Positions 44,826 to 61,157 of a DNA stretch of 64,000 nucleotides are shown here, one piece after another. The notes beneath the pieces were generated by a model. That model did no database searches and had not been told where the DNA came from. It saw only the letters and a list, made by a program, of their open reading frames with translations. Source of the DNA: Bacteroidia bacterium. Lineage in GTDB: Bacteria; Bacteroidota; Bacteroidia; Chitinophagales; Chitinophagaceae. The translations under genes and the position numbers were made by a program. The stretch spans positions 1,602,806 through 1,666,805 of the forward strand of contig JAUICZ010000001.1 in assembly GCA_030429205.1 (NCBI GenBank), given 5' to 3'. Positions within the stretch are counted from its first letter, which is position 1. Each line of letters starts with the position of its first letter.

Positions 44826-44925
44826 TGACCTCTCACAGGGCAAGACATAGTACGTAAGAAAAAGGGGCTGGTTGTATTGCAAAGCATCTGCCAAATAGCC
44901 TTTAAGATGTATAAAAACGTCTTAG

Positions 44926-45534
44926 CTATAAGATGTCTATTTTATTGTTTACTAAAAACTTATAGAGCCCAATAGGTGTGTTCGTATTGGTTTTTCTGCA
45001 AATGTTTTTTCTGTGTGTCTCAACGGTATAGTGACTGAGGTTTAGTTTTTGAGCAATGCTTTGGGTTGTACTTTCATTAATAATGAGCTTAATGATTTCT
45101 AACTCTCGCGGTGTAAAGAGTTCATCGCTATCGCTTCTTTTAATTAATTCATTCGGGAAGTGAGTGCCACCATCCATAATATTATTAATACAATCCATCA
45201 CCTCTTTCTTTCCGGCATTTTTAAGTAAATAACCCGACGCTCCATAATCAATAGCATCATTTATATATCGCTTGTCGTTATACATGGACAGGATGATAAA
45301 TTTTGTGTCTATTATTTTTTTGAGTTTGATGATTAATTGTAACCCATTCATACCGGGCATTCTCAAATCAATAAGAGCGATATCCGGTTTTTTTATCTTC
45401 AATTCATTGTACGTTGTATCGCCGTCATTAGCCATTCCAACAACCCGAATATTCAACTCGTTGCTTATTAAAAGCTTTAACCCGTCTATGACTATTTGGT
45501 GATCATCTGCGAGGTATAATGTTACATATTTCAT
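44926..45534 (-). CDS. module B gene 4: NarL/FixJ-family response regulator
   Basis: 202 residues. Receiver with LADDHQIVIDGLKLL, phospho-Asp in ALIDLRMPGMNGLQL and K in LKNAGK; LuxR-type HTH with FTPRELEIIKLII and STTQSIAQKLNLSHYTVETHRKNI. It is the last gene of module B and overlaps its kinase by 4 bp. It is the best candidate for binding the TACCTA-N4-TAGGTA palindromes that precede module B itself and two other operons, because those sites are 7-2-7 arrays like those of NarL. Confidence 0.93.
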   Translation of the reverse strand: MKYVTLYLADDHQIVIDGLKLLISNELNIRVVGMANDGDTTYNELKIKKPDIALIDLRMPGMNGLQLIIKLKKIIDTKFIILSMYNDKRYINDAIDYGASGYLLKNAGKKEVMDCINNIMDGGTHFPNELIKRSDSDELFTPRELEIIKLIINESTTQSIAQKLNLSHYTVETHRKNICRKTNTNTPIGLYKFLVNNKIDIL

Positions 45535-46322
45535 GCCGACTCATTTAAAGGTATTTCTATTATGATAGTAGTGCCATGCGTAGATGAATCTATATTCAAA
45601 TTACCGTTCAGGATATTGATCCTGCTTGTTATGTTTTTTAACCCAATGCCCGAGGTAGATTCATACGTTTCTTTTGTAAACCCATTTCCATCATCTTCCA
45701 CAATTATCTGTATGAGTTTTGACATCACGTTAATCTGTACAGAAGCATTTATTGCCTGAGCATGTTTATGTACATTGTATAATAATTCGGTGATTATTCT
45801 GTAGCACTGCAATTTTAAGTTGTTGTTTATATTAATATTTTCAGGTGTGCAGAAAAGACGGTAATGGCAACGTTTTTTTGAGTTCAATTGCTCAATGTAC
45901 TTTTCTATTGAAGTGTGTAAACTATTCTCTGTAAGAAACTCCGGATATATATTATGTGAAATTTCACGTAGCTCATTAATGACCTCGTTTATTCCCTGAT
46001 GAGCATCATTGATGAGGGGGTTGTACGGAGCGTTCTCAGACATAACATGGTCGAGGTACATGTTTAGCCCTGAAAGCTTAGCACTAACACCATCGTGCAA
46101 CTCTTCTGCGATACGGTTCCTTTCTTTTTCTTCTCCTTTTTGCAGTGCAAAAAAAACTGCTTCCTTTTTCTTTGTTTCTTCAAGCTGCATTTTAAACCTG
46201 AAGTAATTGACTTTTTTTTGATGTAAGAATATATAGATCACTATTGTGGTGACTAGTATAAGTATGAACATCGTCCCTGCCAGGTAATATATTACTATAT
46301 GACTTGTGGTTTCTTGAAGCAT
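45531..46322 (-). CDS. module B gene 3: HisKA_3-type sensor histidine kinase
   Basis: 263 residues. One membrane helix (HIVIYYLAGTMFILILVTTI), coiled coil, phosphoacceptor block IAEELHDGVSAKLSGLNMYL, then HATPase_c blocks (ITELLYNVHKHAQ, DDGNGFTKE, SGIGLKNITSRI). It has no extracytoplasmic domain of its own, so sensing probably rests on the membrane protein encoded before it, which it overlaps by 28 bp. It should phosphorylate the regulator at 44926. Confidence 0.93.
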   Translation of the reverse strand: MLQETTSHIVIYYLAGTMFILILVTTIVIYIFLHQKKVNYFRFKMQLEETKKKEAVFFALQKGEEKERNRIAEELHDGVSAKLSGLNMYLDHVMSENAPYNPLINDAHQGINEVINELREISHNIYPEFLTENSLHTSIEKYIEQLNSKKRCHYRLFCTPENININNNLKLQCYRIITELLYNVHKHAQAINASVQINVMSKLIQIIVEDDGNGFTKETYESTSGIGLKNITSRINILNGNLNIDSSTHGTTIIIEIPLNESA

Positions 46323-46972
46323 AAAAAAGATTTGGCATATAAAATATTCGAGATGATATTAATGCCTGCATGAGACAATAGACTTAGCTTAGCTGTATAT
46401 ATAGTATTCTCTATCAGGTAGCGATTGAGCATGAAGTAAAATATGTTCAAAGAAAAATAAACCAACACACCTACCCCTATCCAAAACATCGGTATCTCCC
46501 AGGAGTAGTGTTTCATGTTGTTTTTGAAAAACTGGTAAAAGAAAACCAGAGAGTAGCTTACTAAAGATATAGAAGAGTATGTTCTGCTAACCGTGTTCGG
46601 CGCCCAAATGCCATTGATGATGGTTGCATCGATAATGGCAAGAGTTAGAAACAAGAATGTATTCACGTAGAACATTTTGCTCAGTATTTTGCTTTTCTGA
46701 AAACTCCAGTAAAAAGCTGTAGAGAATACAATAAACTCAACTACTGTATATAAATGCAGCCCCGGCATATTATTACCAAACATTTTTTTGGCAACGGTGG
46801 CCTGTAGCTCAAAAAAGACAGACAAAACAAAAAACCAAAAAAGTAGTTTGAATCTTCTGCCGAGCTTATTGTAAAATATCAAGCCTCCAAGTATTGGTAA
46901 AAGAATGCTTGCCTGAGATATTTTTATATAAGCAAAACGGGAGATGTTTTCATATAGTAACAGTTTTTCCAA
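46295..46972 (-). CDS. module B gene 2: multi-pass membrane protein
   Basis: 225 residues with about seven hydrophobic helices and short loops, like gene 2 of module A in size, topology and place. A basic stretch KLGRRFK follows the first helix. It overlaps the kinase gene by 28 bp, so their expression is tightly linked. I infer that it is the membrane sensor or a signal-transmitting partner of the kinase; no family is recognised. Confidence 0.75.
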   Translation of the reverse strand: MEKLLLYENISRFAYIKISQASILLPILGGLIFYNKLGRRFKLLFWFFVLSVFFELQATVAKKMFGNNMPGLHLYTVVEFIVFSTAFYWSFQKSKILSKMFYVNTFLFLTLAIIDATIINGIWAPNTVSRTYSSISLVSYSLVFFYQFFKNNMKHYSWEIPMFWIGVGVLVYFSLNIFYFMLNRYLIENTIYTAKLSLLSHAGINIISNILYAKSFLCFKKPQVI

Positions 46973-47049
46973 TTGTGTGGCTTATTTAGTTAAAAGAGTG
47001 ATAGAGATAGGAACTAAAGACTAATATATAAATTATTATTTTATAGAGA

Positions 47050-47514
47050 TTAGCTACCACTGGTGGTTCTAACGAAATAATCGGCTACCTGTTCTGCAAG
47101 GTTGGCTTTTAAACTACCTATGTTGCTACAGTTGTTAGGGCAAGGGTCTGCATAATCGTAATAAGGGTAATCATCTTCTTCTGTCAAGTCATCATGACAA
47201 CCGGTACCGTCTGTAGTAGAAACGGCTATGAGTGTTAATTGATCGTCTCCATTTACGCTGGCATAAAATCTTACACCTGTCACTTCTGAGTAGTGAGTAT
47301 AAGATGTTATTCCTAGAAGATTAACTAATGCATCTTTTGTCATAGTCCATGAGATGGGTATTGTAAATGGTGTTGTTCTTGACCTGAACTCAGAAGTAAA
47401 TGACTGTGCTGAACTGTCGGTGATTACATCACTGCGATCTTTTTGGCCGGGAGGAGTTAAGGATTTTAAAAAGTCGAATGCTTTTCCTTCTTGAATTGTG
47501 ATGTTTCTTTTCAT
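47050..47514 (-). CDS. module B gene 1: soluble protein of unknown function with CPNNC motif
   Basis: 154 residues, no signal peptide. Core: MTKDALVNLLGITSYTHYSEVTGVRFYASVNGDDQLTLIAV is split here as LVNLLGI and TGVRFYASVNGDDQLTLIAV; a tail with DPCPNNCSN follows. Small Bacteroidota proteins with a GxRFYxxxxxxGxxTLVxV core and a CPxxC tail are familiar to me as uncharacterised, often multi-copy. It is the first gene of module B, 77 bp before the membrane-protein gene, with an exact -7 box and a palindromic operator upstream. Confidence 0.65.
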   Translation of the reverse strand: MKRNITIQEGKAFDFLKSLTPPGQKDRSDVITDSSAQSFTSEFRSRTTPFTIPISWTMTKDALVNLLGITSYTHYSEVTGVRFYASVNGDDQLTLIAVSTTDGTGCHDDLTEEDDYPYYDYADPCPNNCSNIGSLKANLAEQVADYFVRTTSGS

Positions 47515-47538
47515 GTCTTATAAATATTTAGTTAGACA

Positions 47539-47588
47539 CAAATGTAGTTATACCTGATACCGGTTTAAATACCTATGTGTAGGTATTT
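47539..47588 (-). promoter_or_regulatory. module B promoter with NarL-like palindrome
   Basis: Minus-strand -7 box TACATTTG (47546-47539), exact consensus, 20 bases after a 22-bp perfect-armed palindrome (47567-47588) with core TACCTA-N4-TAGGTA. Read as heptamers it is TACCTAT-N2-GTAGGTA, the 7-2-7 arrangement of NarL sites. Palindrome axis to box end is 38.5 bp. Confidence 0.7.
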
Positions 47589-47606
47589 AGATAGATTTCA
47601 AAGTCT

Positions 47607-47656
47607 ATATACCTACATGTAGGTATATGATATAAACCAGCCGAATACAATTTTTG
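47607..47656 (+). promoter_or_regulatory. caspase operon promoter with NarL-like palindrome
   Basis: 22-bp palindrome (47607-47628) with core TACCTA-CATG-TAGGTA, 20 bases, then -7-like box AATTTTTG (47649-47656). Axis to box end 38.5 bp. Its axis is exactly 40 bp from the module B palindrome; each lies about 62 bp before its own start codon. Confidence 0.7.
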
Positions 47657-47679
47657 TTGATAAAACAGAGCAGAATTAC

Positions 47680-48651
47680 ATGAGAAAGGCATTAGTTGTT
47701 GGAATTAATCAATACCCGGACAATCGGTTGTATGGTTGTGTTAACGATGCAAAAGCAATAGCACAAAAACTGTCGACAAACGATGACGGTTCTGCCAATT
47801 TTGATGTCCGTGTAGAGGAGAATGTAGCCAATAAAAATAAACTGATGTCTCTTGTACACAATCTATTTGATTGTGATTATGAGATGTGTTTGTTTTATTA
47901 TGCCGGGCATGGCGCTTTAAACTCTTATGGCAACGGATACATCGTAACACCTGACAAAAAAGAGTTTGATCAGGGCGTTTCTATGGATGAGATAATACAT
48001 ATTGCCAACCTCTCAAAAGCAAAAAATCGTTTGATAATATTGGATTGTTGTTATGCCGGTGCTCTTGGTTCTCCAGCATTTGCCGGAGGCAAAATTTGTC
48101 ATATCGGAGAAGGGGTAACAATAATGACAGCGACCAGACGAAACGGAAAATCCGCAGAGTATAATGGTCATGGGCTGTTTACGGGCTTGTTATTAGAGGC
48201 ATTGAACGGTGCCGCAGCAGATATTAGCGGTATGATTACGCCTGCAGGAATGTATGCTTATGTAGATAGATGTCTTGGTGCCTGGCAGCAGCGGCCTGTG
48301 TTTAAAACCAATACATCCAATTTTGTTTCGTTAAGAACTGTAACGCCTGAAGTTTCTTTGGCTATACTAAAGGAAATTACGACATACTTTGCTGATGAAG
48401 AGTCTCAACATAAGCTCGATCCGTCTTATGAATATACTAACGACCCTGATATGGAGCATAAGGTGATCCTGCCTTATGCAAAAAAAGAACATGTTCGAGT
48501 ATTTAAAGCTTTACAGATGTTGCATTCAATAGGGCTGGTACGTCCGGTGGATGAAGAACATATGTATTGGGCTGCGATCAAAAAAAAGTCCTGTAAGTTA
48601 ACACCATTAGGGCGGCATTATTGGAAGCTTGTAAAGGAACAAAGGTTATAA
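47680..48651 (+). CDS. caspase-family (C14) cysteine peptidase with C-terminal winged-helix-like region
   Basis: 323 residues. Caspase fold: KALVVGINQY at the first strand, catalytic His77 in YYAGHG, catalytic Cys124 in LDCCYAG, and MTATRRNGKSAE. Residues 1 to about 215 form the peptidase; the rest (HVRVFKALQMLHSIGLVRP to LTPLGRHYWKLV) looks like a winged-helix domain. Bacterial caspases usually cut after Arg or Lys and occur in predicted signalling or defence systems. No signal peptide, so it acts in the cytoplasm. It starts an operon with a SEFIR protein 1 bp downstream. Confidence 0.88.
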   Translation: MRKALVVGINQYPDNRLYGCVNDAKAIAQKLSTNDDGSANFDVRVEENVANKNKLMSLVHNLFDCDYEMCLFYYAGHGALNSYGNGYIVTPDKKEFDQGVSMDEIIHIANLSKAKNRLIILDCCYAGALGSPAFAGGKICHIGEGVTIMTATRRNGKSAEYNGHGLFTGLLLEALNGAAADISGMITPAGMYAYVDRCLGAWQQRPVFKTNTSNFVSLRTVTPEVSLAILKEITTYFADEESQHKLDPSYEYTNDPDMEHKVILPYAKKEHVRVFKALQMLHSIGLVRPVDEEHMYWAAIKKKSCKLTPLGRHYWKLVKEQRL

Positions 48652-48652
48652 T

Positions 48653-49810
48653 ATGCAACACAAAAAACCAAAGCCCCGTGTTTTTATCTCTTATAGTTGG
48701 GATAATGATGAACATAAAGACTGGGTACTTACATTGGCAGATAAGTTAAAGGAAGATGGTGTTGATGTAAAGTTAGACAGGTATGATATGTATGCGGGTA
48801 GAAATCTGCATACATTCATAGAAGAGAACATCGAAAAGGCTGATAAGATAGTAGTAGTTTTTACACCAATGTACAGACAGAAAGCAGAAGGCAGAAAAAA
48901 GTATGCCGGTGCTGAATACTCAATAATAAATGTAGGGTTATATCAGGAAATTGCTTCTCAGGAAAAAATAATACCCATTTTTAGGTTAGGAAGCCTGAAA
49001 GAATGTCTGCCTTTGTTTATGCAACAGTTCCTCAGTATTGATTTTTCGGACACGCAATTATACCAAGAAAAATATAAGGAATTATTAAGAGCAATTTATA
49101 AAACCTCTCAAATAGAATCGTCAAGCGAAGCAGGCAAGAATAGCAAACCCACTGCGGGTAAAAGTGAGTGGCAGACTAGAATTGTTACCTTCTTCAACAA
49201 ACGCAATTTTTGGGCGAGTTTTGTTTCAGTCTTAAGCCTTATAGCAGCGTTAATTACAATATGGCAGTATATGAGGAATGATGATGACAATCTTATACAT
49301 ACTGAACCTATTTCTTCTTTAGATAGTCCCGTGGTTACAGAGACCCCTAAGCCAAAAGAAGATAATGATACCCAAGATACTCCTGCAAATGAGGAGAAGC
49401 AGGTAGGGATTACAGAAGTCCAAAAGTCGAGCAGATCAACTACAGCACCGATTAAGAAGCATGAAAACACTACAAATTATATAGTTGAATATGATAATAT
49501 TGGGTTTCCGGTAAATGGGATATGTCTTGTTGAAAAGCAGGGTAGGTATGGATTTATTAATTCAGATAGTAACAATATTAATGGTAGTAAGGTTGTTGAG
49601 TTAAAATATGATTTTGCTGAGGACTTTAGTGAGGGCATGGCACAAGTGAAACGCCATGGTCTTTACGGTTATATTAATACAACCGGGGAGCTCGTTATCA
49701 ATTACCAGTTTGATTATGCCTGGTCTTTTATTGGTGGCATAGCTAAGGTCAGAAAGGGAGGCGAATCATTTAGTATTAATAAACATGGCGAACGCATAGA
49801 TAATCATTAA
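48653..49810 (+). CDS. SEFIR (TIR-like) membrane protein with WG-like repeats
   Basis: 385 residues. N-terminal SEFIR domain (about 8-150): RVFISYSWDNDEHKDWV, LKLDR-like VKLDRYDM and KIVVVFTPMY. One membrane helix (about 187-205, FWASFVSVLSLIAALITIW), a Glu/Pro/Thr-rich linker, and about three WG/KWG-like repeats from 285 (GICLVEKQGRYGFIN, GMAQVKRHGLYGYIN, GIAKVRKGGESFSIN). Topology would place the SEFIR domain in the cytoplasm and the repeats outside. SEFIR domains are signalling adaptors or, like TIR, possible NAD-consuming effectors. The tight coupling to the caspase gene suggests both act together. Confidence 0.85.
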   Translation: MQHKKPKPRVFISYSWDNDEHKDWVLTLADKLKEDGVDVKLDRYDMYAGRNLHTFIEENIEKADKIVVVFTPMYRQKAEGRKKYAGAEYSIINVGLYQEIASQEKIIPIFRLGSLKECLPLFMQQFLSIDFSDTQLYQEKYKELLRAIYKTSQIESSSEAGKNSKPTAGKSEWQTRIVTFFNKRNFWASFVSVLSLIAALITIWQYMRNDDDNLIHTEPISSLDSPVVTETPKPKEDNDTQDTPANEEKQVGITEVQKSSRSTTAPIKKHENTTNYIVEYDNIGFPVNGICLVEKQGRYGFINSDSNNINGSKVVELKYDFAEDFSEGMAQVKRHGLYGYINTTGELVINYQFDYAWSFIGGIAKVRKGGESFSINKHGERIDNH

Positions 49811-49820
49811 AAAAAAACTG

Positions 49821-50807
49821 TTAGTTTTTCCAATTATTTATGTTGTAATGAGATGCATCTACTTGTTGTTTTTTAGCATACTCAACTGCCATTTCTCTAG
49901 ATAGTTTTTTTACCAATTCAACATCATTCATTTTTTCCTTGTAAAGCTCCTCTTTAAACTTCCATTCGATATTATTACGTTCTCTTATAGTCTTACTCAT
50001 CTCTGCTATTAATTTGTTGATCTCTTTTTTGCATTCCGGAGTTGCATTTATCCCTATTTGGCTAAGAGTATGTGCAACAGAATCTGCACCATCTTCATTT
50101 AGAGAGGCTGCCCATTGAGCCTGAGCTTTAAGCAGTAGTGATTGACAATTAAAAGCAGCCCTCTCGGGTACTATTTTCCTCAATATTTTAAGGCTTTTAT
50201 CAAAACATGTTGAGCATTCTTTAGGCACAAGAGACAAGTAGTATATAGCTTTGTCATATTCGTTGGCAGCAACTAGTAAGTCAGCTTCACGCGTTACTTC
50301 ATCACACTTCGTTTCATAATATTCAACAATTTTTAGTTTGCCTGTACGAACGAAATTTCTGGTAATAGAGTCTGTAGTTGCGATACTATTAATAGCGCTA
50401 TTGTACGCTTTTGTTTTGTTCGTGCCTACTCCTTTAACGTTTTTAGTCATTATTGCAAACACTTTACCTTTAATACCATCTCCAATGAAAAAATTCATTT
50501 CGAGATTTAAGACAATCATCGGTGGAGCTGTAGTGGTAACCTCTTCAGACAAAATATTTGTAACTACAGTGATAACAAATCGTGGGTTTTTCAAATCGCC
50601 ACCGATACCTTTACCATCAGACATTTGTCTTAGTTTCATTGCTAAGGTGTGTTGAGAGGCTGTAGGTATTTCTGTGTCGTCTTGTAAACGAGGGTTCAGC
50701 TGAATGCTTTTAAACGGATCAACGCTTACTGATCCCTGCGCAAAAGTGCTATATGACGTTATAATAAGCAACAGAGTACCTGTTATAATAGAGAAGATTT
50801 TTTTCAT
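49821..50807 (-). CDS. exported protein of a conserved four-gene operon (gene 4)
   Basis: 328 residues with a signal peptide ending near TFAQ (24). An N-terminal beta-rich part (FVITVVTNILSEEVTTTAPPMIVLNLEMNF, split here as ITVVTNILSEEV and TAPPMIVLNLEM) resembles periplasmic proteins of CsgG/LPP20-type loci; from about 165 the protein is alpha-helical and TPR-like (AANEYDKAIYYLSLVP). I recall close relatives beside a DUF6175 gene in Bacteroides. It is 10 bp after the DUF6175-like gene and converges with the SEFIR gene at 10 bp distance. Confidence 0.7.
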   Translation of the reverse strand: MKKIFSIITGTLLLIITSYSTFAQGSVSVDPFKSIQLNPRLQDDTEIPTASQHTLAMKLRQMSDGKGIGGDLKNPRFVITVVTNILSEEVTTTAPPMIVLNLEMNFFIGDGIKGKVFAIMTKNVKGVGTNKTKAYNSAINSIATTDSITRNFVRTGKLKIVEYYETKCDEVTREADLLVAANEYDKAIYYLSLVPKECSTCFDKSLKILRKIVPERAAFNCQSLLLKAQAQWAASLNEDGADSVAHTLSQIGINATPECKKEINKLIAEMSKTIRERNNIEWKFKEELYKEKMNDVELVKKLSREMAVEYAKKQQVDASHYNINNWKN

Positions 50808-50817
50808 TGTTCAATTT

Positions 50818-51765
50818 TTATTTAGCCCCTAATATTAGTATCGCCTGCCCAAGGCCTTTAGCCATCAATCTGCTTTCTATATTATATGGCGGTGCTGCAA
50901 GGTGTTTTTGCAGATTTCTTAAAAATTTTCTTGCATCTATAGCATGATCTTTTTCGTCGAATAGTGGTATTCGTACCTGCTCAAAAAACATACTATTGTA
51001 AGAGAAGTCTGTAAGGTTATATACTTCGTTTACAGTATTGTTCATTATCCAGTCTTCAATAATTGTTACCAGATCGTCTCCATTATATGTCGCATCCAGG
51101 TCTTTGCTCCAACTGTCAAAACGTTTTATACGTACAACTATTTCTCTCCCGTTTTCAAACATGTCGTCAAAGTGATTTTGTAAAGATTCATTGAATATGT
51201 CTATTCGAGAGATAATAGCTTCTTCTATCAGTGTGGCCAGATCTGCAGAAAACGTAGAGGCACCGGTGCCGCTTGCCTCTGCTATTTGTTTGTCTGTATA
51301 TGCGTCTAAACCTTGTAACACACAACTAAGTGTGCTCTTTGGGCCGGTACTATCAACTTTCCAGGTAAGCTGAATGATGATATCGGCCTTTGCTACTTTT
51401 TTGAGTTTCTCTATTGGTGTTTCAGCAATTCCCGCACCTGCTTTAGAGGTCAGAATCGCATCTTCGGCAGATTCATATTCTAATGATTTAATAACAGACT
51501 CCATGTTCTTGAGTGGGAAGCTTCTTTCCGCCATCATGCCATTTATCTTGCTGATAGCAACAATAAGTTCTGCGTTTTCCTGAAATGCCCTTTTGTAGTT
51601 AGGTAGATGAATTATGGTTCCTTGATTGTCAAATGTATCAGTATAGCCGTGTTGAAAACACCAGACATCGCTTGGAACAACCATGATTGTTGGTTTTTTT
51701 GCTTTGGTTGCCCAAGAAACATTAGCTAATAGTAATAACAGTATTGTAAGTATATTTTTCATCAT
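50818..51765 (-). CDS. DUF6175-like exported protein (gene 3 of the operon)
   Basis: 315 residues, signal peptide ending near VSWA (20). The pattern KPTIMVVPSDVWCFQHGY, then PLKNMESVIKSLE, KADIIIQLTWKVD, DAYTDKQIAEASGTG and a C-terminal EQVRIPLFDEKDHAIDARKF fits the family I know as DUF6175 from Bacteroides, a periplasmic protein of unknown role with some likeness to the CsgG fold. It is 15 bp after the preceding gene on the minus strand, in the middle of the four-gene operon. Confidence 0.75.
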   Translation of the reverse strand: MMKNILTILLLLLANVSWATKAKKPTIMVVPSDVWCFQHGYTDTFDNQGTIIHLPNYKRAFQENAELIVAISKINGMMAERSFPLKNMESVIKSLEYESAEDAILTSKAGAGIAETPIEKLKKVAKADIIIQLTWKVDSTGPKSTLSCVLQGLDAYTDKQIAEASGTGASTFSADLATLIEEAIISRIDIFNESLQNHFDDMFENGREIVVRIKRFDSWSKDLDATYNGDDLVTIIEDWIMNNTVNEVYNLTDFSYNSMFFEQVRIPLFDEKDHAIDARKFLRNLQKHLAAPPYNIESRLMAKGLGQAILILGAK

Positions 51766-51780
51766 TTAATGTTTTTTTTA

Positions 51781-52314
51781 CTAGAATCGGTTTAATGACT
51801 GAATGATGTCATCTTTCTCAAGATCTTTTCTTAGCTGACTATACATGATAACTACAGTAACGCCTACCTTGTATAGATCTTTTTTTCCTTTTCGTTTTAT
51901 TTTGATAACGTCTTTCGACTGAGAACCTTCTCCTGTAGCCAGGTTTACGTACTTCATGTACTTACCATGGTCAGAGAAAAATTCTTTAAAATAGGCTGCC
52001 TGCTCTTGTTCAAGATTAGAATTTCTTGTCATTGGGCTTTGTGCCGGGCAACCGGCTTTTCTATTGCCGGCAAACCCTTTAAATATGACTGCATGAACAG
52101 CGTTCTTTTTTGCTTGTAGTGCTGCTATATCTTGTTTCGTAGAGTAGCTCCAAATTTTTATCATTTTAGTGCCTTGAAGACCTATTTCAACACACTCGGC
52201 TTCGTAATGCCATTCTATAGTTTCTTTATTTGCTTTTCTTTTTTGCGCAGTTGCACTTGTGTAAAACAAGGTTGTGACAATAACTGTGAGCAAAAGAGAT
52301 GTGAAATATTTCAT
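51781..52314 (-). CDS. exported protein of the four-gene operon (gene 2)
   Basis: 177 residues with a signal peptide ending near ATAQ (24). Landmarks: ECVEIGLQGTKMIKIWSYS, AALQAKKNAVHAVIFKGF, then KEFFSDHGKYMKYVN and VGVTVVIMYSQLRKDLEK. I recall this pattern, also unnamed, from the same locus in Bacteroides. The middle block resembles a LPP20/CsgG-type periplasmic module (A-x-x-x-K-N-A-V-x-A). It is 10 bp after gene 1 of the operon. Confidence 0.68.
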   Translation of the reverse strand: MKYFTSLLLTVIVTTLFYTSATAQKRKANKETIEWHYEAECVEIGLQGTKMIKIWSYSTKQDIAALQAKKNAVHAVIFKGFAGNRKAGCPAQSPMTRNSNLEQEQAAYFKEFFSDHGKYMKYVNLATGEGSQSKDVIKIKRKGKKDLYKVGVTVVIMYSQLRKDLEKDDIIQSLNRF

Positions 52315-52324
52315 GTTATTGATA

Positions 52325-53581
52325 TTATTTTTGTTTGATCAGCATGCCTGTATAAAAGTTCCGACCTCTCATTTTTTTAAATAATGTTCTGTCTACTTTT
52401 TGGGTGGAATCAGTTGTTGCCATATATCGGTTGTCCCATATTTGAGATTTGTCTACCCTGATCAGCCCGACGTTTTTATAAGATGTAATACCATTCTCGT
52501 CCACCACCTGTTCTAATACATTGTATTTGTCTCCTGCTTCTAGGCCTTCTTTCTTACCTATTTTCGCAGTAAGAGGATCAATAGTATGTATCGGAGATAC
52601 GGTCCTGAATTGCGGATGTTTTTTCTGCAGTTTGGCTATTACAGCATCCAAAGATTTGACAGTAGCTATAGTTACAAGATCCTCTTCCGACTTAGTTGTA
52701 TATTTAGTGGATTGTAAGTCGGCCCACGCTTTTTCTGACCCTAAATATTTTAAGCTGAACAGGTCTGTTTTGTCAAAAGCGGCTTTTCTTTTTTCATCAT
52801 ATGTACGCTCATTCATCCAATAGTTTTTATAGAATAAATTGGCAATAGAATCGTTCCAGTTGAGTTGATATAAATATGATGTAGTGATGACGACATAACC
52901 CTTCCCCAGAGTTTCGGCGCCTCCTTTTAAAACACTGCCGGTTGCAATAACTGTGCTGCTACTGGGCATTTTGCCGGTTACCTTATTGGTTTTAGCCATC
53001 GGCCCGACATTGGGCATATACCCTTTTAGTCTCTCTGCCTTCGCTATTATCTCCTGCGTTTGGCTTACCCTTTGATTGATGGTTTTTGCAAGCTCTTCTT
53101 TACTGATAAACCTGAAATCGCTGACCAGTACAAAAGTGTTTGCAATAAGCGATTCTCCTGCATCGGCAATAAGGGCAGTGCCTCGTTTGCTTTTTTTTGC
53201 TATTGCTACATCAATTTCAGATGCATTGTAAAAACCCCGGTTCGCTACCAGATCCATATTGAAGCAACCTTTTTTATCTCTATTAAACCATTTAGCTACA
53301 GCTTTTTTAGCTATCTCGTTAGTTGTCAGAAAAGCGTTAATAATTGAGTCTTGCAGCGTATCATTTGCGATTGATTTGATCAAACGTATTGATGATGTGT
53401 TATGATTGTTGAACTTATCGGGTATGGGTGTTTTTAGAAAGGTGCTTTTTATTGTGTTTTCATACTTTCGGTTGCCATCAGTTACCATCAAAGTATAAAG
53501 CGAACTTCTTTTATACTTTATTGGCTGTGCTTTTAAAATAGCCGGAAGGATTACAATTAGTAATGAGAAGATGATTTTCAT
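52325..53581 (-). CDS. exported protein of the four-gene operon (gene 1)
   Basis: 418 residues, signal peptide ending near LKAQ (18). Features: YKRSSLYTLMVTD, IPDKFNNHN, KWFNRDKKGCFNMDLVANRG, EVL/VLEQVVDENGITSYKNVGLIRV near the C-terminus. The whole looks like a periplasmic mixed alpha/beta protein; no enzyme motif. A relative stands first in the Bacteroides locus I recall. Its promoter carries the third NarL-like palindrome, which links this operon to module B and the caspase operon. Confidence 0.68.
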   Translation of the reverse strand: MKIIFSLLIVILPAILKAQPIKYKRSSLYTLMVTDGNRKYENTIKSTFLKTPIPDKFNNHNTSSIRLIKSIANDTLQDSIINAFLTTNEIAKKAVAKWFNRDKKGCFNMDLVANRGFYNASEIDVAIAKKSKRGTALIADAGESLIANTFVLVSDFRFISKEELAKTINQRVSQTQEIIAKAERLKGYMPNVGPMAKTNKVTGKMPSSSTVIATGSVLKGGAETLGKGYVVITTSYLYQLNWNDSIANLFYKNYWMNERTYDEKRKAAFDKTDLFSLKYLGSEKAWADLQSTKYTTKSEEDLVTIATVKSLDAVIAKLQKKHPQFRTVSPIHTIDPLTAKIGKKEGLEAGDKYNVLEQVVDENGITSYKNVGLIRVDKSQIWDNRYMATTDSTQKVDRTLFKKMRGRNFYTGMLIKQK

Positions 53582-53633
53582 AGTAGAATCTTATAATGGT
53601 GCTGTCAATTATGTGATGATCAATAAATATCCC

Positions 53634-53643
53634 TTGCATGCAA
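53634..53643. other. short palindrome at the start region of the four-gene operon
   Basis: TTGCATGCAA, a 10-bp perfect palindrome overlapping the -7-like box and presumed transcript start of the gene at 53581. It may be chance. Confidence 0.3.
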
Positions 53644-53690
53644 AGTTGTACAGGAGTGCCGCCAGAGACAATACCTATTGGTAGGTATAT
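53641..53690 (-). promoter_or_regulatory. promoter of the four-gene exported operon with NarL-like palindrome
   Basis: Palindrome ATACCTA-TTGG-TAGGTAT at 53671-53688; minus-strand -7-like box CAACTTTG (53648-53641). Axis to box end is 38.5 bp, identical to the two sites at 47.6 kb. Confidence 0.68.
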
Positions 53691-53849
53691 TGCCATGAAT
53701 GCTTATGATATAAGGTTTACAGCATTAGGTGATCAGTGCTTAAAACTGAAACCATTAAAGATGAAAAATGAGACTCCCGTATAAAAGAAGCACTGGTAGG
53801 TTGAGAAGTAACCAGGGGTGGGTAAGTAACATGAACACCAAGAATGCAA

Positions 53850-54482
53850 CTAATCTGTAAGGCCGGATTTGATTGCGAAAGAAGTAAGACTTGAGCGATT
53901 ATGAATCCCTAGTTTTTTAAACAGGCTAACACGATAATTTTCAACAGACCGTTCGGCTACGCCCATTTCTTGTGCTATTTGTTTGTAAGTCATATCTAAC
54001 TGGCAATATTTTAAGAACTCCATTTCTCTTTTAGATAATTCAGGAAATCTTTTTTGAAGGTTATACTTCCCGGTTGTTAAATAGTCCAGTATTTTCTCAG
54101 AATAATATCTGCCGTTTTCTGACACTTGCCTGATTGTTTCAAACAGTTTTTTAGGGTCGCCGCCTTTTGCTATATGCCCAGACGCACCATTTAAAATCAT
54201 ACTCATTATTGGAAATTCGTCATCATATACAGAGAGCGCTATAACTTTAATTGATGGGTATTCCTTTCTTAATATTTTAAGTGTTTCGTAGCCATTGAGT
54301 TTAGGCATCTTAATATCAAGCAAAACAATTTTTGGTAGTGTATCGCACTTCGCAAGTTTTTCAAGTAAGTCCAAACCATTTTCAGCTTCGACGACAACAT
54401 CTATGTCCTTATGTAGCTTAAATATCTCCACTAACCCTCTTCTGTATACGGGGTGATCTTCTGCAAGGGCAATTGTAACCAT
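53850..54482 (-). CDS. orphan NarL/FixJ-family response regulator
   Basis: 210 residues: EDHPVYRRGLVEIF, phospho-Asp in VLLDIKMPKLNGYE, K in AKGGDPKK and HTH LSKREMEFLKYCQLDMTYKQIAQEMGV split as LSKREMEFL and YKQIAQEMGVAERSVENYRVSL. No kinase gene adjoins it. It lies between the four-gene exported operon and a type IX cargo gene. It could be driven by one of the nearby kinases, and it is an alternative candidate for binding the palindromes at 47.6 and 53.7 kb. Confidence 0.92.
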   Translation of the reverse strand: MVTIALAEDHPVYRRGLVEIFKLHKDIDVVVEAENGLDLLEKLAKCDTLPKIVLLDIKMPKLNGYETLKILRKEYPSIKVIALSVYDDEFPIMSMILNGASGHIAKGGDPKKLFETIRQVSENGRYYSEKILDYLTTGKYNLQKRFPELSKREMEFLKYCQLDMTYKQIAQEMGVAERSVENYRVSLFKKLGIHNRSSLTSFAIKSGLTD

Positions 54483-54532
54483 ATTGAGGACGTTTAAAGG
54501 TTAATGTTCGGTAGCTGTAATTTACTAAAAGC

Positions 54533-54677: not shown

Positions 54678-56807
54678 ATGAAAAAAGATCTAATTAGGAA
54701 TATTAGCATTCTTATAATGCTCTCATTTTTAACATCAACAGCAGCCTATTGTCAAACACATACCTATGTGTATGACGTTGATGATAAAGTAAAAGGGTAC
54801 TCTGTTGAGATGTGTACTGATTATCAATCGAATAACGGAGAAACAGTACAAGTTGGAACTATTTACGATTACCCGAACACTGGTGAGGCATCTGTTCATT
54901 TTATGAATATAGCAGATGACGGAACGGTCAATTACTCCAAGTACATAGATGCGCCGAGCGGGTACGAGGAATTACGAGCTGTTGATATCGTTGGAGATGA
55001 AGGCGGAGGCTGGGGTGCGCCTTCCGGTTCTGCTATTTACTACATTACTTGTTTGGCCAGAACAACTTTATCAAACGATAGGATAGTCATCATACCCGTT
55101 AACTATAAAGGAGATATGGTAGGTGCTGCAAGAGAGATATACGCCACGGATATGTTTGGTTCTCTTGACGGGGACAGGAACTTTTACCCATTACATTCAA
55201 TATATCTTCAGAGTACAGGTTATATATATGTTTGCGGATATTATACTACTGAATACAATGGCCCCGGTGGTACCAGTTTAAGTGGTGGCGGAGAACCGGG
55301 ATACACAAGTGATAAATATGCATTTGTATGTTACGAGGAGTTTAATGGAGCAATGTGGACAGGCAACAGGGTTTTATGGGGAATGACAACGGCTTTTGAT
55401 GATATTTCCACTATACCATCTACTCGTAAAGCAGACCCGGACGGAAATGACTATGACATCGCAATGAGAATGGTTGAAACAAGTAGCGGTCATGTTTTTG
55501 TTACAGGTAGTGTAAATGACGTGAAACCAGATGGAGGAGGGGGTGAATATTGGCATAGCGCGGTAATGAATTACCATTTGGATAATCAGCTGGTTTTCTG
55601 GTCGCCGCACATATTTGATGCAGGGCATTTTACCAACGGAACTGAACAAATCAGTGTAGGGCATGAGTATGGTATTGGTTTGGTTGAAGCAGGACCAAGT
55701 GATAAGTATGTGGTGGGTAACTATTTCTTTAGATGGGGGATTGATGACAAGTTTACAGATATGGAGCCTTCGTTCTTTTTTGTGAATTGGATCAATAATA
55801 ATTTTGACCACACAACTACAGGTGACAGCAGGGCCACTTTTTATGGGTTTGACTATGCTATTGCATTACAAACACTTGAAGGCCCACCTGTTAAAACATT
55901 TACTGCCGGAGACCCGAGTGAGGTGAGGTTTTTGATACCGGGAATAGCGGCAAATGAATGGTGCTCTAACCCGCTGCAGTGGGATGACATACGTACATTC
56001 GTTCATGACATAGAAGTTGATTATAATAGTTCATCAAGCGGCAACATCAATGCTGTGTTTAATAAATGGACAACTTACGGAACATGGAATAACACTACTT
56101 TGCCATATACAAATTGGGATAGTTATTTCTCATTGGGTGGCGGCATTAGTAATGTTGGCTGGAACCCTACATTGGCCGGTAGAGAAAATACTTCTGAAGA
56201 CATATACATAGCTGCTCCTACAACTTTAGGTTCGCCTGATAGGTTACAACTAAAAAATATCAGGGTCGAACATGATGAAACTCTTCCTGACTATTTGCAT
56301 GATAACAATTGCAGCTCAAGTTCTAGTTCAATAGATGATGCATGGGGAGATTGCCTTATGACTGATTATGCTTTTGAATCTGCATATAACTTAGGTCATA
56401 GTACCGCAGTACTTATTAGCGCCGGCGCGCAATTTTCTTCTGCAGTAATATACTCTGATGTAACAACTATACCTGCATCAGGTAGTGGAAGTTTGACAAC
56501 AAATACGTATGCATATACAGAGCTGGACTGTCCTACATACAGTAAATACAAACCGGCGTTAGTTGGTGTAAATGAGTTAGGGCTGACAACAAAGGTTTTT
56601 CCTAACCCTGTCAGCACTCAATTAAACATTCAAAATGCAGATGGCGCAGTTTATAAAATAGTTGATATTACAGGGAGAGAAGTAAGTTCCGGTACACTGA
56701 AAGGCAATGAAGCTGTCATAAATACGGCAAATATTGCGGTAGGTGTGTACATCATCAACATTACCAGAGACGGAGAAACAGAAAAAATAAAATTTGTAAA
56801 AAAATGA
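54678..56807 (+). CDS. large exported protein with type IX sorting domain
   Basis: 709 residues with a signal peptide ending at AAYCQ (26). The body has Tyr/Gly/Asp-rich segments like SGYEELRAVDIVGDEGGGW and YLQSTGYIYVCGYYTTEY, which suggest a beta-propeller. The last 75 residues, from TTKVFPNPVSTQLNIQ to EKIKFVKK, form a type A type IX sorting domain. The product is probably displayed at or released from the cell surface. Function unknown. Direct repeats in its upstream region may make it a target of the divergent orphan regulator. Confidence 0.85.
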   Translation: MKKDLIRNISILIMLSFLTSTAAYCQTHTYVYDVDDKVKGYSVEMCTDYQSNNGETVQVGTIYDYPNTGEASVHFMNIADDGTVNYSKYIDAPSGYEELRAVDIVGDEGGGWGAPSGSAIYYITCLARTTLSNDRIVIIPVNYKGDMVGAAREIYATDMFGSLDGDRNFYPLHSIYLQSTGYIYVCGYYTTEYNGPGGTSLSGGGEPGYTSDKYAFVCYEEFNGAMWTGNRVLWGMTTAFDDISTIPSTRKADPDGNDYDIAMRMVETSSGHVFVTGSVNDVKPDGGGGEYWHSAVMNYHLDNQLVFWSPHIFDAGHFTNGTEQISVGHEYGIGLVEAGPSDKYVVGNYFFRWGIDDKFTDMEPSFFFVNWINNNFDHTTTGDSRATFYGFDYAIALQTLEGPPVKTFTAGDPSEVRFLIPGIAANEWCSNPLQWDDIRTFVHDIEVDYNSSSSGNINAVFNKWTTYGTWNNTTLPYTNWDSYFSLGGGISNVGWNPTLAGRENTSEDIYIAAPTTLGSPDRLQLKNIRVEHDETLPDYLHDNNCSSSSSSIDDAWGDCLMTDYAFESAYNLGHSTAVLISAGAQFSSAVIYSDVTTIPASGSGSLTTNTYAYTELDCPTYSKYKPALVGVNELGLTTKVFPNPVSTQLNIQNADGAVYKIVDITGREVSSGTLKGNEAVINTANIAVGVYIINITRDGETEKIKFVKK

Positions 56808-56928
56808 TATAAAAGTTAGCAAACAACGGTGCGCCCTGCTTTTAAGGGGCTGCATTGTTTAGAAATGGGTGTAGCTCTCCTGCTTTATATATATAAATAT
56901 GTTATTCTTTAATTAAACAAATAATACT

Positions 56929-57402
56929 ATGAAAAAAACAATTTTAGTACTATCCATTTGCCTGATGGCGACCTTTGCTGCATTTGCTCAGCCCGGCAGC
57001 AGTATTACAATCGACAACCAAACCGCGTGTAACATCACTTTTGAAATACACGGTGTTTCATCAACTTCTACAACTTGCCCGGGTACTCCTGCGTCTTCTT
57101 CCGGAAGAATTACAATTACTGCCGGTACTTCTTACACTTTTGATAATGCATTGAATACACCGGGGGCGTTTACAATGGGCGACCTCTTTTCTCATGTAGA
57201 AGTGTACGAGGATGCTTATGCCGGGGCTACTGCATGTGGTGGTAACGGTGCAAACTCTCATTTAGTAGGGGAGTGTGCAGCGCCGTCTGCAGGCCCTGTT
57301 GCACTACACGAATCGGATGCGGCAAACACTATGTGTTTTTGTACGGCAGCAAGTGCAAACATCACCTGGAACTCCGGTACAACTACATTGACGATAAACT
57401 AA
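56929..57402 (+). CDS. small exported protein of unknown function
   Basis: 157 residues with a signal peptide ending near FAQ (21). The mature protein is rich in Thr, Ser, Ala and Gly, with eight cysteines, some in pairs suitable for disulfides (ATACGG, GECAAP, MCFCTA). It starts ITIDNQTACNITFEIHG, a pattern of small beta-sandwich exported proteins. There is no sorting domain. It is 121 bp after the large cargo gene and ends at its own terminator. Confidence 0.65.
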   Translation: MKKTILVLSICLMATFAAFAQPGSSITIDNQTACNITFEIHGVSSTSTTCPGTPASSSGRITITAGTSYTFDNALNTPGAFTMGDLFSHVEVYEDAYAGATACGGNGANSHLVGECAAPSAGPVALHESDAANTMCFCTAASANITWNSGTTTLTIN

Positions 57403-57443
57403 AGAAGAGCGATTGTACTCGATATTTAAGAAGTATATGAATG

Positions 57444-57466
57444 AAGAGCCTAATACTTGGGCTCTT
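57444..57466 (+). terminator. terminator of the small exported protein gene
   Basis: AAGAGCC (57444-57450) pairs with GGCTCTT (57460-57466), followed by TGTTTATG. Confidence 0.6.
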
Positions 57467-57514
57467 TGTTTATGTATGGTAATCAATGAAATCTGAAAAA
57501 AAATGCAGTTAGTG

Positions 57515-57545
57515 TTTGGCTAAATCAAAAAGCTGCATATCTTTG
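57515..57545 (+). promoter_or_regulatory. promoter of tRNA-Val
   Basis: TTTG (57515-57518), 19 bases, TATCTTTG (57538-57545). Both elements match the Bacteroidota primary sigma consensus exactly; this is the best promoter in the window. The tRNA begins 30 bases downstream. Confidence 0.85.
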
Positions 57546-57575
57546 CAATCCGTTTTACGGAAAAGCAATGAAAAA

Positions 57576-57650
57576 GGAGGCATAGCTCAGTTGGTTCAGA
57601 GCATCTGCCTTACAAGCAGAGGGTCCGCGGTTCGAATCCGTGTGCCTCCA
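57576..57650 (+). tRNA. tRNA-Val (anticodon TAC)
   Basis: Full cloverleaf: acceptor GGAGGCA/TGCCTCC, D arm, anticodon stem TCTGC/GCAGA with loop CTTACAA (anticodon TAC at 57611-57613), and T loop TTCGAAT. Discriminator A is at 57650; CCA is not encoded. Confidence 0.97.
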
Positions 57651-57653
57651 CAG

Positions 57654-57683
57654 AAAAAGCCTCAACGATAGTTGAGGCTTTTT
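57654..57683. terminator. bidirectional terminator after tRNA-Val
   Basis: AAAAAGCCTCAAC pairs perfectly with GTTGAGGCTTTTT around GATA. It serves the tRNA (plus) and the sorting-domain gene at 57719 (minus). A near copy lies at 59214-59243. Confidence 0.9.
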
Positions 57684-57718
57684 GCTTTATGGAATAATTT
57701 GTTTGTGATTAAATAGGC

Positions 57719-59116
57719 TTATTGTTTCATAAATTTCTGAATGAAATTTACTTCTGCAGATTCTGCCTTTATCATGTAAAAGCCATTTGGTAAATCACTT
57801 ATGTCAAATGAGATGGAATGGGCTTGGTCTGATAGCTTCTTCGTCTTTAGCAAACTGCCTGAAATGTTTATAAGGTGGATGGTCAATTCTTCCGTTATGT
57901 CCGTAAACTCAACTGTTACTTTATCGCTTGTGGGGTTAGGGTAGAGTCTAAGAGTGCTATTCCCTGATTTCGCCACTTCAATCCCTGTTAGTTTACCTGG
58001 TTTGCTACGAACAGCAGATTCGTTAATAAACATCAAATCTCCGGAACCCACATTGGTAAACGATATGTATGCCTTGTTGTTTACATCAATAAGCGACGAC
58101 CACGCCCCTACCTTGCCCGTGCTGTAAACAGTTTCAAAGCTAGTAGGCCAAGAGCTCCCGATAGCGTTGTTTGCTCGGATATAGCACAGGTCATTATATC
58201 GGCCATAATAAGAAATTGCAGGCCTGCCGTTAACAACAGCTAAGTATGGGAGCTTGCCGGTATTACCTGTTACATCCAGAGTGATTGGGGTATTCCACGA
58301 CGAGCCAGCAGCATTAGTCGCATATGCAAACTTTAGGTCTTTGTCTGTATTATGGTGGTAGGCTATAGCAGGTACACCATTAACTATTTTCATGGATAGA
58401 TCCAGATTGGCAGTACCTGTACCGATAACATCAACAGTATCAGGAGTGGCCCAACTGGTGCCATTTATGTCATTTGCACGTACATACATAATCATTCCAT
58501 TTGTGCTGCTATAGTATGCAATGGCAGGTTTCCCATCGGCTATGACCATAGAGCTTATCAGACCGACTTGCCCTGTAGAGGCTACTGTTACAGGGCTTCC
58601 CCATGCAGCGCCGTTTCCTTGCGTGGCACGTACGTACATTAAATCAAATGTGTTTTGCTTGAAGTAAGAAATAGCAGGAGCGTTATTAACCATTTGCATA
58701 GAAGGGTTATTGCCCACACTACCTGCAGAAACAACAGTCCTGATAGTATCCCACGTAGCGCCGCTACCATCTGCCGCACGTACGTATTTCAAATCGTTCT
58801 GCGTGTCATCAAAATATGCAATTGCCGGTCTGCCATTTACCTCTATTAAGCAAGGCGATTTGCCTGTTTGGCCGTTGGATTCTACTGTAACAGGTGTTGT
58901 CCAGTTGTTTGCTGTGTCGTTTGTTGAGCGTACAAACATTAAATCGACAGATGAGTTGTTTTTGTATGCAATCATAACGTACCCATTCAGAGATAAAATA
59001 GAGGTTGAGTGACCGGTATTACCTGTTGCATCTAAAGTAAGCGGACTGTTCCATTGAGCAGAAACGGTTATGCTGCATAATAGCAAAATCATAACCAAGT
59101 TAGTTTTTGGTTTCAT
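57719..59116 (-). CDS. exported repeat protein with type IX sorting domain
   Basis: 465 residues, signal peptide ending near VSAQ (21). The body has about seven repeats of roughly 48 residues with the pattern (V)NGxPAIAYxxxxxxDLxYVRAxxxxGxxW, each probably one blade of a beta-propeller, like BNR/sialidase-type repeats but without a catalytic set. The C-terminal 75 residues (TLRLYPNPTSDKVTVEF onward) are a type A sorting domain. Surface location is expected. Substrate or partner unknown. Confidence 0.88.
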   Translation of the reverse strand: MKPKTNLVMILLLCSITVSAQWNSPLTLDATGNTGHSTSILSLNGYVMIAYKNNSSVDLMFVRSTNDTANNWTTPVTVESNGQTGKSPCLIEVNGRPAIAYFDDTQNDLKYVRAADGSGATWDTIRTVVSAGSVGNNPSMQMVNNAPAISYFKQNTFDLMYVRATQGNGAAWGSPVTVASTGQVGLISSMVIADGKPAIAYYSSTNGMIMYVRANDINGTSWATPDTVDVIGTGTANLDLSMKIVNGVPAIAYHHNTDKDLKFAYATNAAGSSWNTPITLDVTGNTGKLPYLAVVNGRPAISYYGRYNDLCYIRANNAIGSSWPTSFETVYSTGKVGAWSSLIDVNNKAYISFTNVGSGDLMFINESAVRSKPGKLTGIEVAKSGNSTLRLYPNPTSDKVTVEFTDITEELTIHLINISGSLLKTKKLSDQAHSISFDISDLPNGFYMIKAESAEVNFIQKFMKQ

Positions 59117-59213
59117 GGTATATATTTTAGTTACATAAAGTTACACCAAGTCGTGCGCTCAAAACAGGTGAAAAAGACCCTTTTTCGTAATGACCTTTAC
59201 AGTACAAGCACAG

Positions 59214-59243
59214 AAAAAGCCCCAACATTTGTTGAGGCTTTTT
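59214..59243. terminator. terminator of the YCF48-like gene, copy of the tRNA-Val terminator
   Basis: AAAAAGCCCCAAC pairs with GTTGAGGCTTTTT around ATTT, one C-A mismatch. The preceding CACAG is also shared with the end of the tRNA region, 1,560 bp away. Confidence 0.75.
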
Positions 59244-59273
59244 GTTTTTCTATTTTCAGTTTCGACAGACGTA

Positions 59274-60503: not shown

Positions 60504-60556
60504 GTTTTTTTGACTTTTGATTTCGTGTATCGCTCCTTAAAATTAATTAAATTTTA

Positions 60557-60579
60557 ATTAAACGTTTTAGACGTTTAAT
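60557..60579. promoter_or_regulatory. inverted repeat upstream of the YCF48-like gene
   Basis: ATTAAACG (60557-60564), 7 bases, CGTTTAAT (60572-60579). Perfect arms, 53 bp before the gene start. Possible operator; the sequence around it is very AT-rich. Confidence 0.35.
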
Positions 60580-60651
60580 CTAAAAAATGATTATTAGCTG
60601 GTGGTTAAACTTCTGGTCGGTTTTTAATAGCCTGATTTGTCTGAGTTAAAT

Positions 60652-60695
60652 GTAACCTACATCACATTACACTAAAATCACCTTACTTACCTTTG
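60652..60695 (+). promoter_or_regulatory. promoter of the second thioredoxin gene with Crp/Fnr-like palindrome
   Basis: GTAAC-CTAC-ATCAC at 60652-60665 (GTGAT-GTAG-GTTAC on the other strand), then an exact -7 box TACCTTTG at 60688-60695. Axis to box end 36.5 bp, the same as at the trxA and persulfide-dioxygenase-like promoters. Confidence 0.65.
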
Positions 60696-60712
60696 CAGCA
60701 AATAGAAAAATA

Positions 60713-61084
60713 ATGCCAACAATAAAACTAACGACAGCAGATTTTAAGAAGAAAGTATTCGATTACGAAAACAATAAAGAGTGGAAGTACGAGGGAGAGC
60801 TGCCTGCAATTATAGATTTTTATGCAGATTGGTGTGGCCCGTGTAAAATGGTAGCACCAATATTAGAAGAACTATCGGATGAGTACGATGGGAAGCTGCT
60901 GATATATAAAGTAGATACAGAAGCAGAGCAAGAGCTTGCGGGGGCATTTGCTATACAAAGCATACCTTCTATATTGTTTATACCTGCCGATGCGCAGCCT
61001 ATGATGCAAAAAGGAGCCTTGCCTAAACACGTGTTGAAGCAGGTAATTGACGAGCACTTGGTGAAGGAAACTACTGAAGGTTAA
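60713..61084 (+). CDS. thioredoxin-family protein
   Basis: 123 residues, cytoplasmic. Active site FYADWCGPCKMVAPIL, then YKVDTEAEQELAGAFAIQSIPSILF with cis-Pro. It is longer at the N-terminus than a classical thioredoxin, with an additional VFDYENNKEWKYEG segment typical of a Bacteroidota thioredoxin subgroup. The shared operator suggests joint control with the trxA operon at 38999. It lies 73 bp before the decarboxylase gene. Confidence 0.93.
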   Translation: MPTIKLTTADFKKKVFDYENNKEWKYEGELPAIIDFYADWCGPCKMVAPILEELSDEYDGKLLIYKVDTEAEQELAGAFAIQSIPSILFIPADAQPMMQKGALPKHVLKQVIDEHLVKETTEG

Positions 61085-61157
61085 GAATAGTTTTGCCCTA
61101 CTGCGTTTTACGAAATAAGAACGCATCTTTGCAGTGTAATTTCTATTTGCACGATAT

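Follow-up and report, generated by a model that had tools for sequence, protein, structure and literature searches.

A palindromic operator common to a four-gene exported operon and a caspase/SEFIR operon in a member of the Bacteroidia

Organization of the Locus

The window analyzed here is a stretch of 64,000 nucleotides from a Bacteroidia bacterium of the family Chitinophagaceae (GCA_030429205.1, contig JAUICZ010000001.1, positions 1,602,806 to 1,666,805), and the subject is an operon of four genes, P1 to P4, together with the convergent operon that encodes a caspase-family protein and a TIR/SEFIR protein (Table 1). As described in the first-pass annotation, P1–P4 form one minus-strand operon of exported proteins, including a DUF6175 member. 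Their open reading frames (ORFs) are separated by gaps of 10, 15 and 10 bp, each product begins with a hydrophobic signal-peptide-like N-terminus as judged by reading the sequence, and P3 matches Pfam DUF6175 with 374.2 bits (curated cut-off 23). The Pfam search returned no family above its cut-off for P1, P2 or P4. Only 10 bp lie between the stop codon of P4 and the end of the convergent caspase/SEFIR operon.

The caspase-family protein carries a Peptidase_C14 domain with a His/Cys dyad, the motifs AGHG and DCC both being present. The SEFIR protein encoded behind it matches the PADLOC model bSEFIR over residues 5–171 of 385 (180.7 bits, E 2e-53); it resembles the bSEFIR anti-phage protein in its N-terminal SEFIR domain and differs from it in being encoded behind a caspase gene and in carrying WG repeats. 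The G+C content of the locus (44900–54500) is 0.367, lower than that of the flanking regions (0.415 at 1–44000 and 0.410 at 54678–64000), which is compatible with acquisition of the locus but is no proof of it.

Table 1. Genes and promoter elements of the locus, with the gene facing the fourth operator on another contig
Feature	Position	Strand	Basis
P1, 418 aa, signal peptide, FlgT-like fold (predicted)	52325..53581	-	ORF; structure model; Foldseek
P2, 177 aa, signal peptide, without Pfam family	51781..52314	-	ORF; Pfam
P3, 315 aa, signal peptide, DUF6175 (PF19672)	50818..51765	-	ORF; Pfam E 4.9e-112
P4, 328 aa, signal peptide; N-terminal half CsgG/PelC/LptE-like (predicted), C-terminal half helical	49821..50807	-	ORF; model
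Operator C, TACCTAN4TAGGTA palindrome, upstream of P1	53672..53687	-	motif scan
P1 promoter −7 box CAACTTTG, 23 bp from operator C	53641..53648	-	motif scan
Operator B, upstream of caspase gene	47610..47625	+	motif scan
Caspase promoter −7 box AATTTTTG, 23 bp from operator B	47649..47656	+	motif scan
Operator A, upstream of divergent 154-aa gene, also of caspase gene	47570..47585	-	motif scan
154-aa gene −7 box TACATTTG, full consensus, 23 bp from operator A	47539..47546	-	motif scan
Caspase-family protein (Peptidase_C14), 323 aa, no signal peptide seen	47680..48651	+	Pfam E 2.4e-16
TIR/SEFIR protein, 385 aa, transmembrane-like stretch (by reading), WG repeats	48653..49810	+	Pfam; PADLOC bSEFIR
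154-aa protein, no family assigned, third operator-bearing promoter of the locus	47050..47514	-	ORF; Pfam; promoter scan
NarL/LuxR-type response regulator, candidate regulator (putative)	53850..54482	-	Pfam Response_reg + GerE; 163 bp beyond operator C
Exported MORN protein facing the fourth operator	L046:8078-8785, another contig		Pfam MORN

Operator and Promoter Geometry

The palindrome ATACCTAN4TAGGTAT occurs at 47569, 47609 and 53671, with 0 mismatches at each position. Its core TACCTAN4TAGGTA is found at exactly four places in the 3.64-Mb genome, three of which lie inside this locus within 6 kb. Two of the four sites share the intergenic region of the caspase gene and the divergent 154-aa gene, the third precedes P1 and the fourth the gene of an exported MORN protein. 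As reported in PMC2483708, Bacteroidota promoters carry the −7 motif TAnnTTTG. The element AnnTTTG lies at offset 24 beyond the palindrome in all four sites (chance p ~1.6e-10, computed from the frequency of AnnTTTG in the window), where it is the sole occurrence within 60 bp on that side, and none was found on the other side. Four promoters of one geometry in the genome therefore point to a small regulon. Because of these operator-to-box distances, the operator centre would lie near −43, a position that would fit an activator beside RNA polymerase or a repressor over the −33 box. The earlier proposal that the caspase operon and P1 share one operator type is strongly supported by the fixed spacing at all four sites and by the recurrence of the operator at both promoters in two Pedobacter genomes and in a Cellulophaga metagenome-assembled genome (MAG).

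Recurrence at P1 and Caspase Promoters in Other Genomes

For 76 of 80 loci kept from a scan for DUF6175 relatives, the region upstream of P1 was available. The site TACCYAN4TRGGTA was found in six of these promoters, five of which also have AnnTT at offset 24. The 419 other promoters scanned include three with the site, each being the far side of those same intergenic sites, and none with the −7 element, so that site plus AnnTT at offset 24 stands at 5/76 vs 0/419 (p 7.6e-5). Further P1 promoters with the site come from other loci, namely L066 and L072, as well as L067, where the −7 box is missing. In the nine other genomes with a site upstream of P1, 57 sites were listed and the surroundings of 53 were read. 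When 63 oriented sites of all ten genomes (own included) were compared, TAnnTTTG lay at offset 23 in ten and at any other offset at most once, the shuffle maximum being 2.

Four of these ten genomes contain caspase matches (nine genes) and six contain none. The exact site is located 53–94 bp from the start codon of five of the nine genes, and these cover all four caspase-bearing operator genomes. For instance, the caspase encoded behind the site in Pedobacter polaris (G483) is exported, contains DUF4384 and has its His/Cys pair intact, and in P. planticolens (G484) sites precede the counterpart of this caspase (a C14 family match) and a WD40-caspase. In the Cellulophaga MAG (G487), the sole caspase match carries the site with the full −7 box. 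In G483 and G484, three caspase genes were scored as lacking the site by comparing coordinates. Further products encoded behind sites in the two Pedobacter genomes include a papain-type protease, a thioredoxin-like protein, a TPR sensor kinase and, as judged by reading, an MsrA-like protein.

As a control, 51 other DUF6175 genomes yielded 23 caspase matches in 18 genomes, and the exact site was found in none of the 19 whose upstream DNA was visible (it was not for L242 and L250–L252). In this set L231 and L232 are one genome under two handles, L250 falls below the family cut-off, and L240 shows a site with a single mismatch. Counted by genome, the caspase site is present in 4/4 operator genomes vs 0/18 controls (Fisher p 1.4e-4); calculated by hand, the value becomes 1.7e-4 with the duplicate genome merged and 8.8e-4 with the own genome removed.

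Closer to the source organism, the exact operator was absent from six loci of nearer relatives. Among 99 relatives, exact ATACCTAN4TAGGTAT was present three times in the own genome and once each in eight others, none of these eight being at a caspase or P1 gene (eight 3-kb loci, by reading). The regulon is therefore not a general feature of the family.

Occurrence of the Promoter Form in the Class

In compound form (site+N23+TAnnTTT), the promoter occurs 51 times in 32 of 395 genomes of the class, vs five times for the reversed control. The 13 pooled spacings N25–N37 gave 46 occurrences in 41 of 390 genomes, about 3.5 per offset, and the reversed control gave about as many (47 in a count made by hand). 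The genes behind 50 of the 51 compound sites were read, and outer-membrane-like proteins were seen among them. Two genomes of one genus in another family (G635 and G687) hold 12 sites, and four genes behind these match PADLOC models: two SIR2-like (L311 being weak, E 3e-6), one PDC-S18 and one ZorD/Mrr-like.

Several sites of these two genomes share a similar spacer sequence (L304, L306, L311). At L283, L294 and L297, in other families, operator and −7 box precede FeoA-like genes, as judged by reading.

Candidate Regulators

As given in PMC4886647, the NarL heptamer is TACYYMT. The half-site TACCYA agrees with its positions 1–6 and differs from the sites of the NarL/NarP regulon at the seventh position, which is variable. 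GerE-domain genes adjoin sites in 7/88 cases vs 3/1438 genes of the 80 loci, a count that used a profile built from other regulators and that concerns genomic proximity only. In Flavobacterium franklandianum, two of the GerE-domain genes themselves stand behind sites with the full −7 box. In a search for orthologues of the response regulator beside P1, none of the matches listed in 18 other genomes exceeded 43% identity. Judging from sequence, the regulon is probably controlled by a regulator of the NarL/LuxR type, for which the response regulator beside P1 is the first candidate.

According to PMC13373217, the CapK/CapS system likewise places immune operons under transcriptional control by a dedicated regulator. 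It consists of an adjacent kinase/STAS-type repressor pair, whereas this locus has a palindromic operator whose spacing to the −7 box is constant and which is also found at an envelope operon.

Near the caspase locus (window 44926–46322, by reading), another response regulator of the LuxR type is encoded together with its own histidine kinase and is an alternative candidate. The F. franklandianum proteins at L205 and L206 are GerE-only proteins of 69–76 aa without a receiver domain, encoded behind the operator, and it is possible that they are self-regulating mini regulators. In genome G201 (L072:3881-10932) the operator lies between a TPR-kinase-like and LuxR-type regulator pair and an operon of the order P1 slot, P2, P3, P4; the first protein of this operon carries a long additional stretch at its C-terminus.

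Conservation of the Four Families

Genome contigs were scanned with an alignment of P3, by which at least 544 relatives were confirmed and the 80 loci kept. At 75 of these 80 loci, all of which contain a DUF6175 relative, P1, P2, P3 and P4 are found together in a single same-strand run, and at the remaining five two or three of them are present, with median intergenic gaps of 15–19 bp; P2 is duplicated in many relatives. These results support an old, conserved Bacteroidota unit, and the neighborhood of the four families thus bears out the age assumed in the first-pass annotation. Its placement of the set in Bacteroides found no counterpart, as this genus is named in none of the record titles of the 80 loci, which include Bacteroidales and Paludibacteraceae among Bacteroidota. 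DUF6175 was detected in 19 of 395 sampled genomes of the phylum and in 7 of 99 nearer relatives (own genome counted in both), and in none of three same-genus genomes, two of which are only 65% and 87% complete. A plasmid search for DUF6175 gave no match. In the open-licence PMC literature, no paper was found under the name DUF6175, and nothing on this operon or operator.

In sister operons, a CsgG/LpoB-family protein occupies the P1 slot and is followed by P2, P3 and P4 (P2 was not found in L012); the Pfam match to CsgG or LpoB lies above the curated cut-off in L010, L011, L069 and L071. Some P1 relatives (L013, L072) bear a long C-terminal extension that resembles an outer-membrane barrel, as judged by reading. 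In genome G439 (L068:9512-15307) the operon is rearranged to P3–P4–WG protein–P1–P2, and the WG repeats match the SEFIR protein of the window.

Predicted Folds

The model of P1 has a predicted local distance difference test score (pLDDT) of 81.6, and its best Foldseek matches are the flagellar basal-body protein FlgT (3w1e, E 3.7e-6), which is matched across most of the P1 length, and the LPHT ring (8z5n, E 1.5e-5). P1 differs from FlgT in having no sequence match to the FlgT chain or family (the FlgT Pfam family does not appear among the P1 matches with E values of 1 or below), in being encoded in a four-gene operon with DUF6175, and in the long C-terminal extension of some relatives. For the P4 model (pLDDT 84.7), E values between 4e-4 and 0.03 were obtained against a Caulobacter lipoprotein, HpaA, CsgG, FlgT and PelC, the value for CsgG (4uv2) being 3.8e-3 with TM 0.19/0.26. 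Its N-terminal half is predicted to resemble outer-membrane lipoproteins of the CsgG/PelC/LpoB/LptE type; unlike these, P4 has a helical C-terminal half, and a lipobox-like motif is found in 0/79 P4 proteins. None of the window P1–P4 has a CsgG Pfam match, profile searches of solved structures with the P1–P4 alignments gave nothing credible, and when profiles were compared, the CsgG-type P1 slot showed no match to P3 or P1, nor P2 to P4 (probability 21–27%).

Several structural matches of P1 and P4 are proteins that form assemblies on the periplasmic side of the outer membrane. Because the fold matches include such outer-membrane assemblers, the products of the operon are read as a putative outer-membrane-associated assembly.

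A Proposed Small Regulon and Its Possible Role

The overall reading favored here, with a probability of roughly 0.6, is that the four-gene exported set and the caspase/bSEFIR operon belong to one small regulon that serves a stress or defence programme. P1–P4 would be transcribed as one unit, yielding an exported set akin to the FlgT/CsgG/PelC class at the periplasmic face of the outer membrane. Their Bacteroidota-type promoter has the −7 box exactly 23 bp beyond the operator TACCYA-N4-TRGGTA, and the same geometry is seen before the caspase/bSEFIR operon, the divergent 154-aa gene and the exported MORN-repeat protein. On switching of the regulator, most likely of NarL/LuxR type, the cytoplasmic caspase with the TIR/SEFIR protein and the outer-membrane-associated assembly would be produced together, as the inner and the outer arm, respectively, of a single programme. 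It is likely that the regulator activates rather than represses, and P1–P4 may form a complex.

A number of observations weigh against this reading. The operator link is lineage-restricted, as only 6/76 P1 promoters carry the site. In two of the ten operator genomes (G201 and G467) the site lies ~390–400 bp from P1, in G467 without a −7 box. Four of the nine caspase genes of the operator genomes lack the exact site, L227 being a near-match. A caspase match is missing from 39 of 61 operon genomes, including 6/10 operator genomes, and the operon and the caspase are therefore not an obligatory pair. The tie to caspases anticipated in the first-pass annotation stands for part of the sample: all four caspase-bearing operator genomes pair the sites. 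The bare site clearly exceeds the reversed control in four of nine genomes (13 vs 1, 11 vs 0, 5 vs 1 and 7 vs 2), while in the other five the counts are 6/5, 4/3, 3/2, 4/2 and 4/2. The two highest counts, those of G483 and G484, together with their varied products, would suit the operator of a broad growth-phase or general stress regulator, under which the co-regulation of the caspase would be real and the two operons would have no functional tie. This is somewhat unlikely, given the tiny regulon here, with four sites of which three are clustered, and the pairing of P1 and caspase in 4/4 caspase-bearing operator genomes.

Further points on the same side concern the genes and bases next to the palindrome. 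Elsewhere, the compound promoter precedes genes for FeoA (three cases) or FeoAB, CDF-like, TonB-receptor-like and other non-defence proteins, as judged by reading. In addition, the palindrome is directly adjoined by a TTG similar to the −33 box in 11/63 sites, P1 here included, an arrangement that would also suit a repressor. Both would agree with a palindrome that covers the −33 region of genes for metal or envelope homeostasis and is bound by a repressor, in which case the two operons of this locus would be just two envelope or metal-stress targets without a part in defence. Such an explanation seems quite improbable, for the genes behind the sites of the two Pedobacter genomes include caspases and the protease, sensor kinase, thioredoxin-like and MsrA-like proteins mentioned above, GerE-type genes adjoin sites, and among the exact-site caspase promoters the TTG stands beside the palindrome only in L200. 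The FeoA-type cases may mark a second regulator on the same palindrome, which is perhaps read by more than one regulator. In view of the mixed genes behind the sites, the motif is not specific but a widespread operator, used for the caspase and the four-gene set in some lineages only.

Adjacency and folds also count against the favored reading. In BLAST searches with the window proteins only, no homologue of the window caspase or SEFIR domain was found near the operon in the 80 loci, and likewise none in 24 earlier loci, except for the WG-repeat match in L068. The match between P1 and FlgT is loose: Z is 8.8–9.1, but the root-mean-square deviation amounts to 10.6–11.7 across 216 residues, and the final 90 residues of P1 form a barrel to which F1-ATPase barrels are matched with Z up to 8.5. 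The missing caspase neighbors, the CsgG/LpoB-type occupants of the P1 slot in sister operons and the closeness of the P4 fold to CsgG and PelC would be expected if the four-gene set were a CsgG-like secretion or surface-fibre assembly apparatus, beside which the caspase operon was inserted by chance. This appears unlikely, since it leaves the common operator with its matched spacing, and the recurrence of both, unexplained.

Within the favored reading of one small regulon, the evidence for a defence role is suggestive only: the SEFIR protein matches PADLOC bSEFIR, and the same form of promoter stands before SIR2-like and Mrr-like genes in two genomes of another family. For the envelope link, hinted at together with stress or defence in the first-pass annotation, the support consists of the predicted folds (P1 FlgT-like, P4 CsgG/PelC-like). 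One might speculate, with little confidence, that some Bacteroidota possess a transcriptional immune programme in which a regulator of the NarL type, acting on promoters that share a fixed geometry, turns on caspase-family effectors and their TIR/SEFIR partner along with an outer-membrane ring that is FlgT/CsgG-like but not flagellar; as the envelope arm, this ring would be a sensor, a barrier or a lysis gate and would link phage damage of the envelope to cell death driven by the caspase.

Caspase-family proteins are present in many bacteria, and to our knowledge what turns them on is mostly unknown. A defined operator at a defined promoter distance, located at caspase promoters and at a conserved envelope operon, makes the question of the caspase switch directly testable, with a single regulator, a handful of targets and mutable sites. 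The models also offer a first, predicted structural reading (FlgT/CsgG class) for the DUF6175 operon, whose family has at least 544 matches in one genome scan.

Neighboring Genes

Around the fourth operator (L046:8078-11536; G000 C10, ~13.1–16.5 kb), an MNT-HEPN fusion and a ThsB-type TIR protein (PADLOC E 1e-56) are encoded near the MORN gene, on other transcripts. Assignment of the fourth site to the MNT-HEPN gene was rejected, since the −7 box faces the MORN gene, and so was a drive of the ThsB-type TIR gene, which lies beyond the MNT-HEPN gene on the opposite strand. In the window itself, several exported proteins encoded at 54678–60503 have C-terminal ends that resemble type IX secretion sorting domains, as judged by reading.

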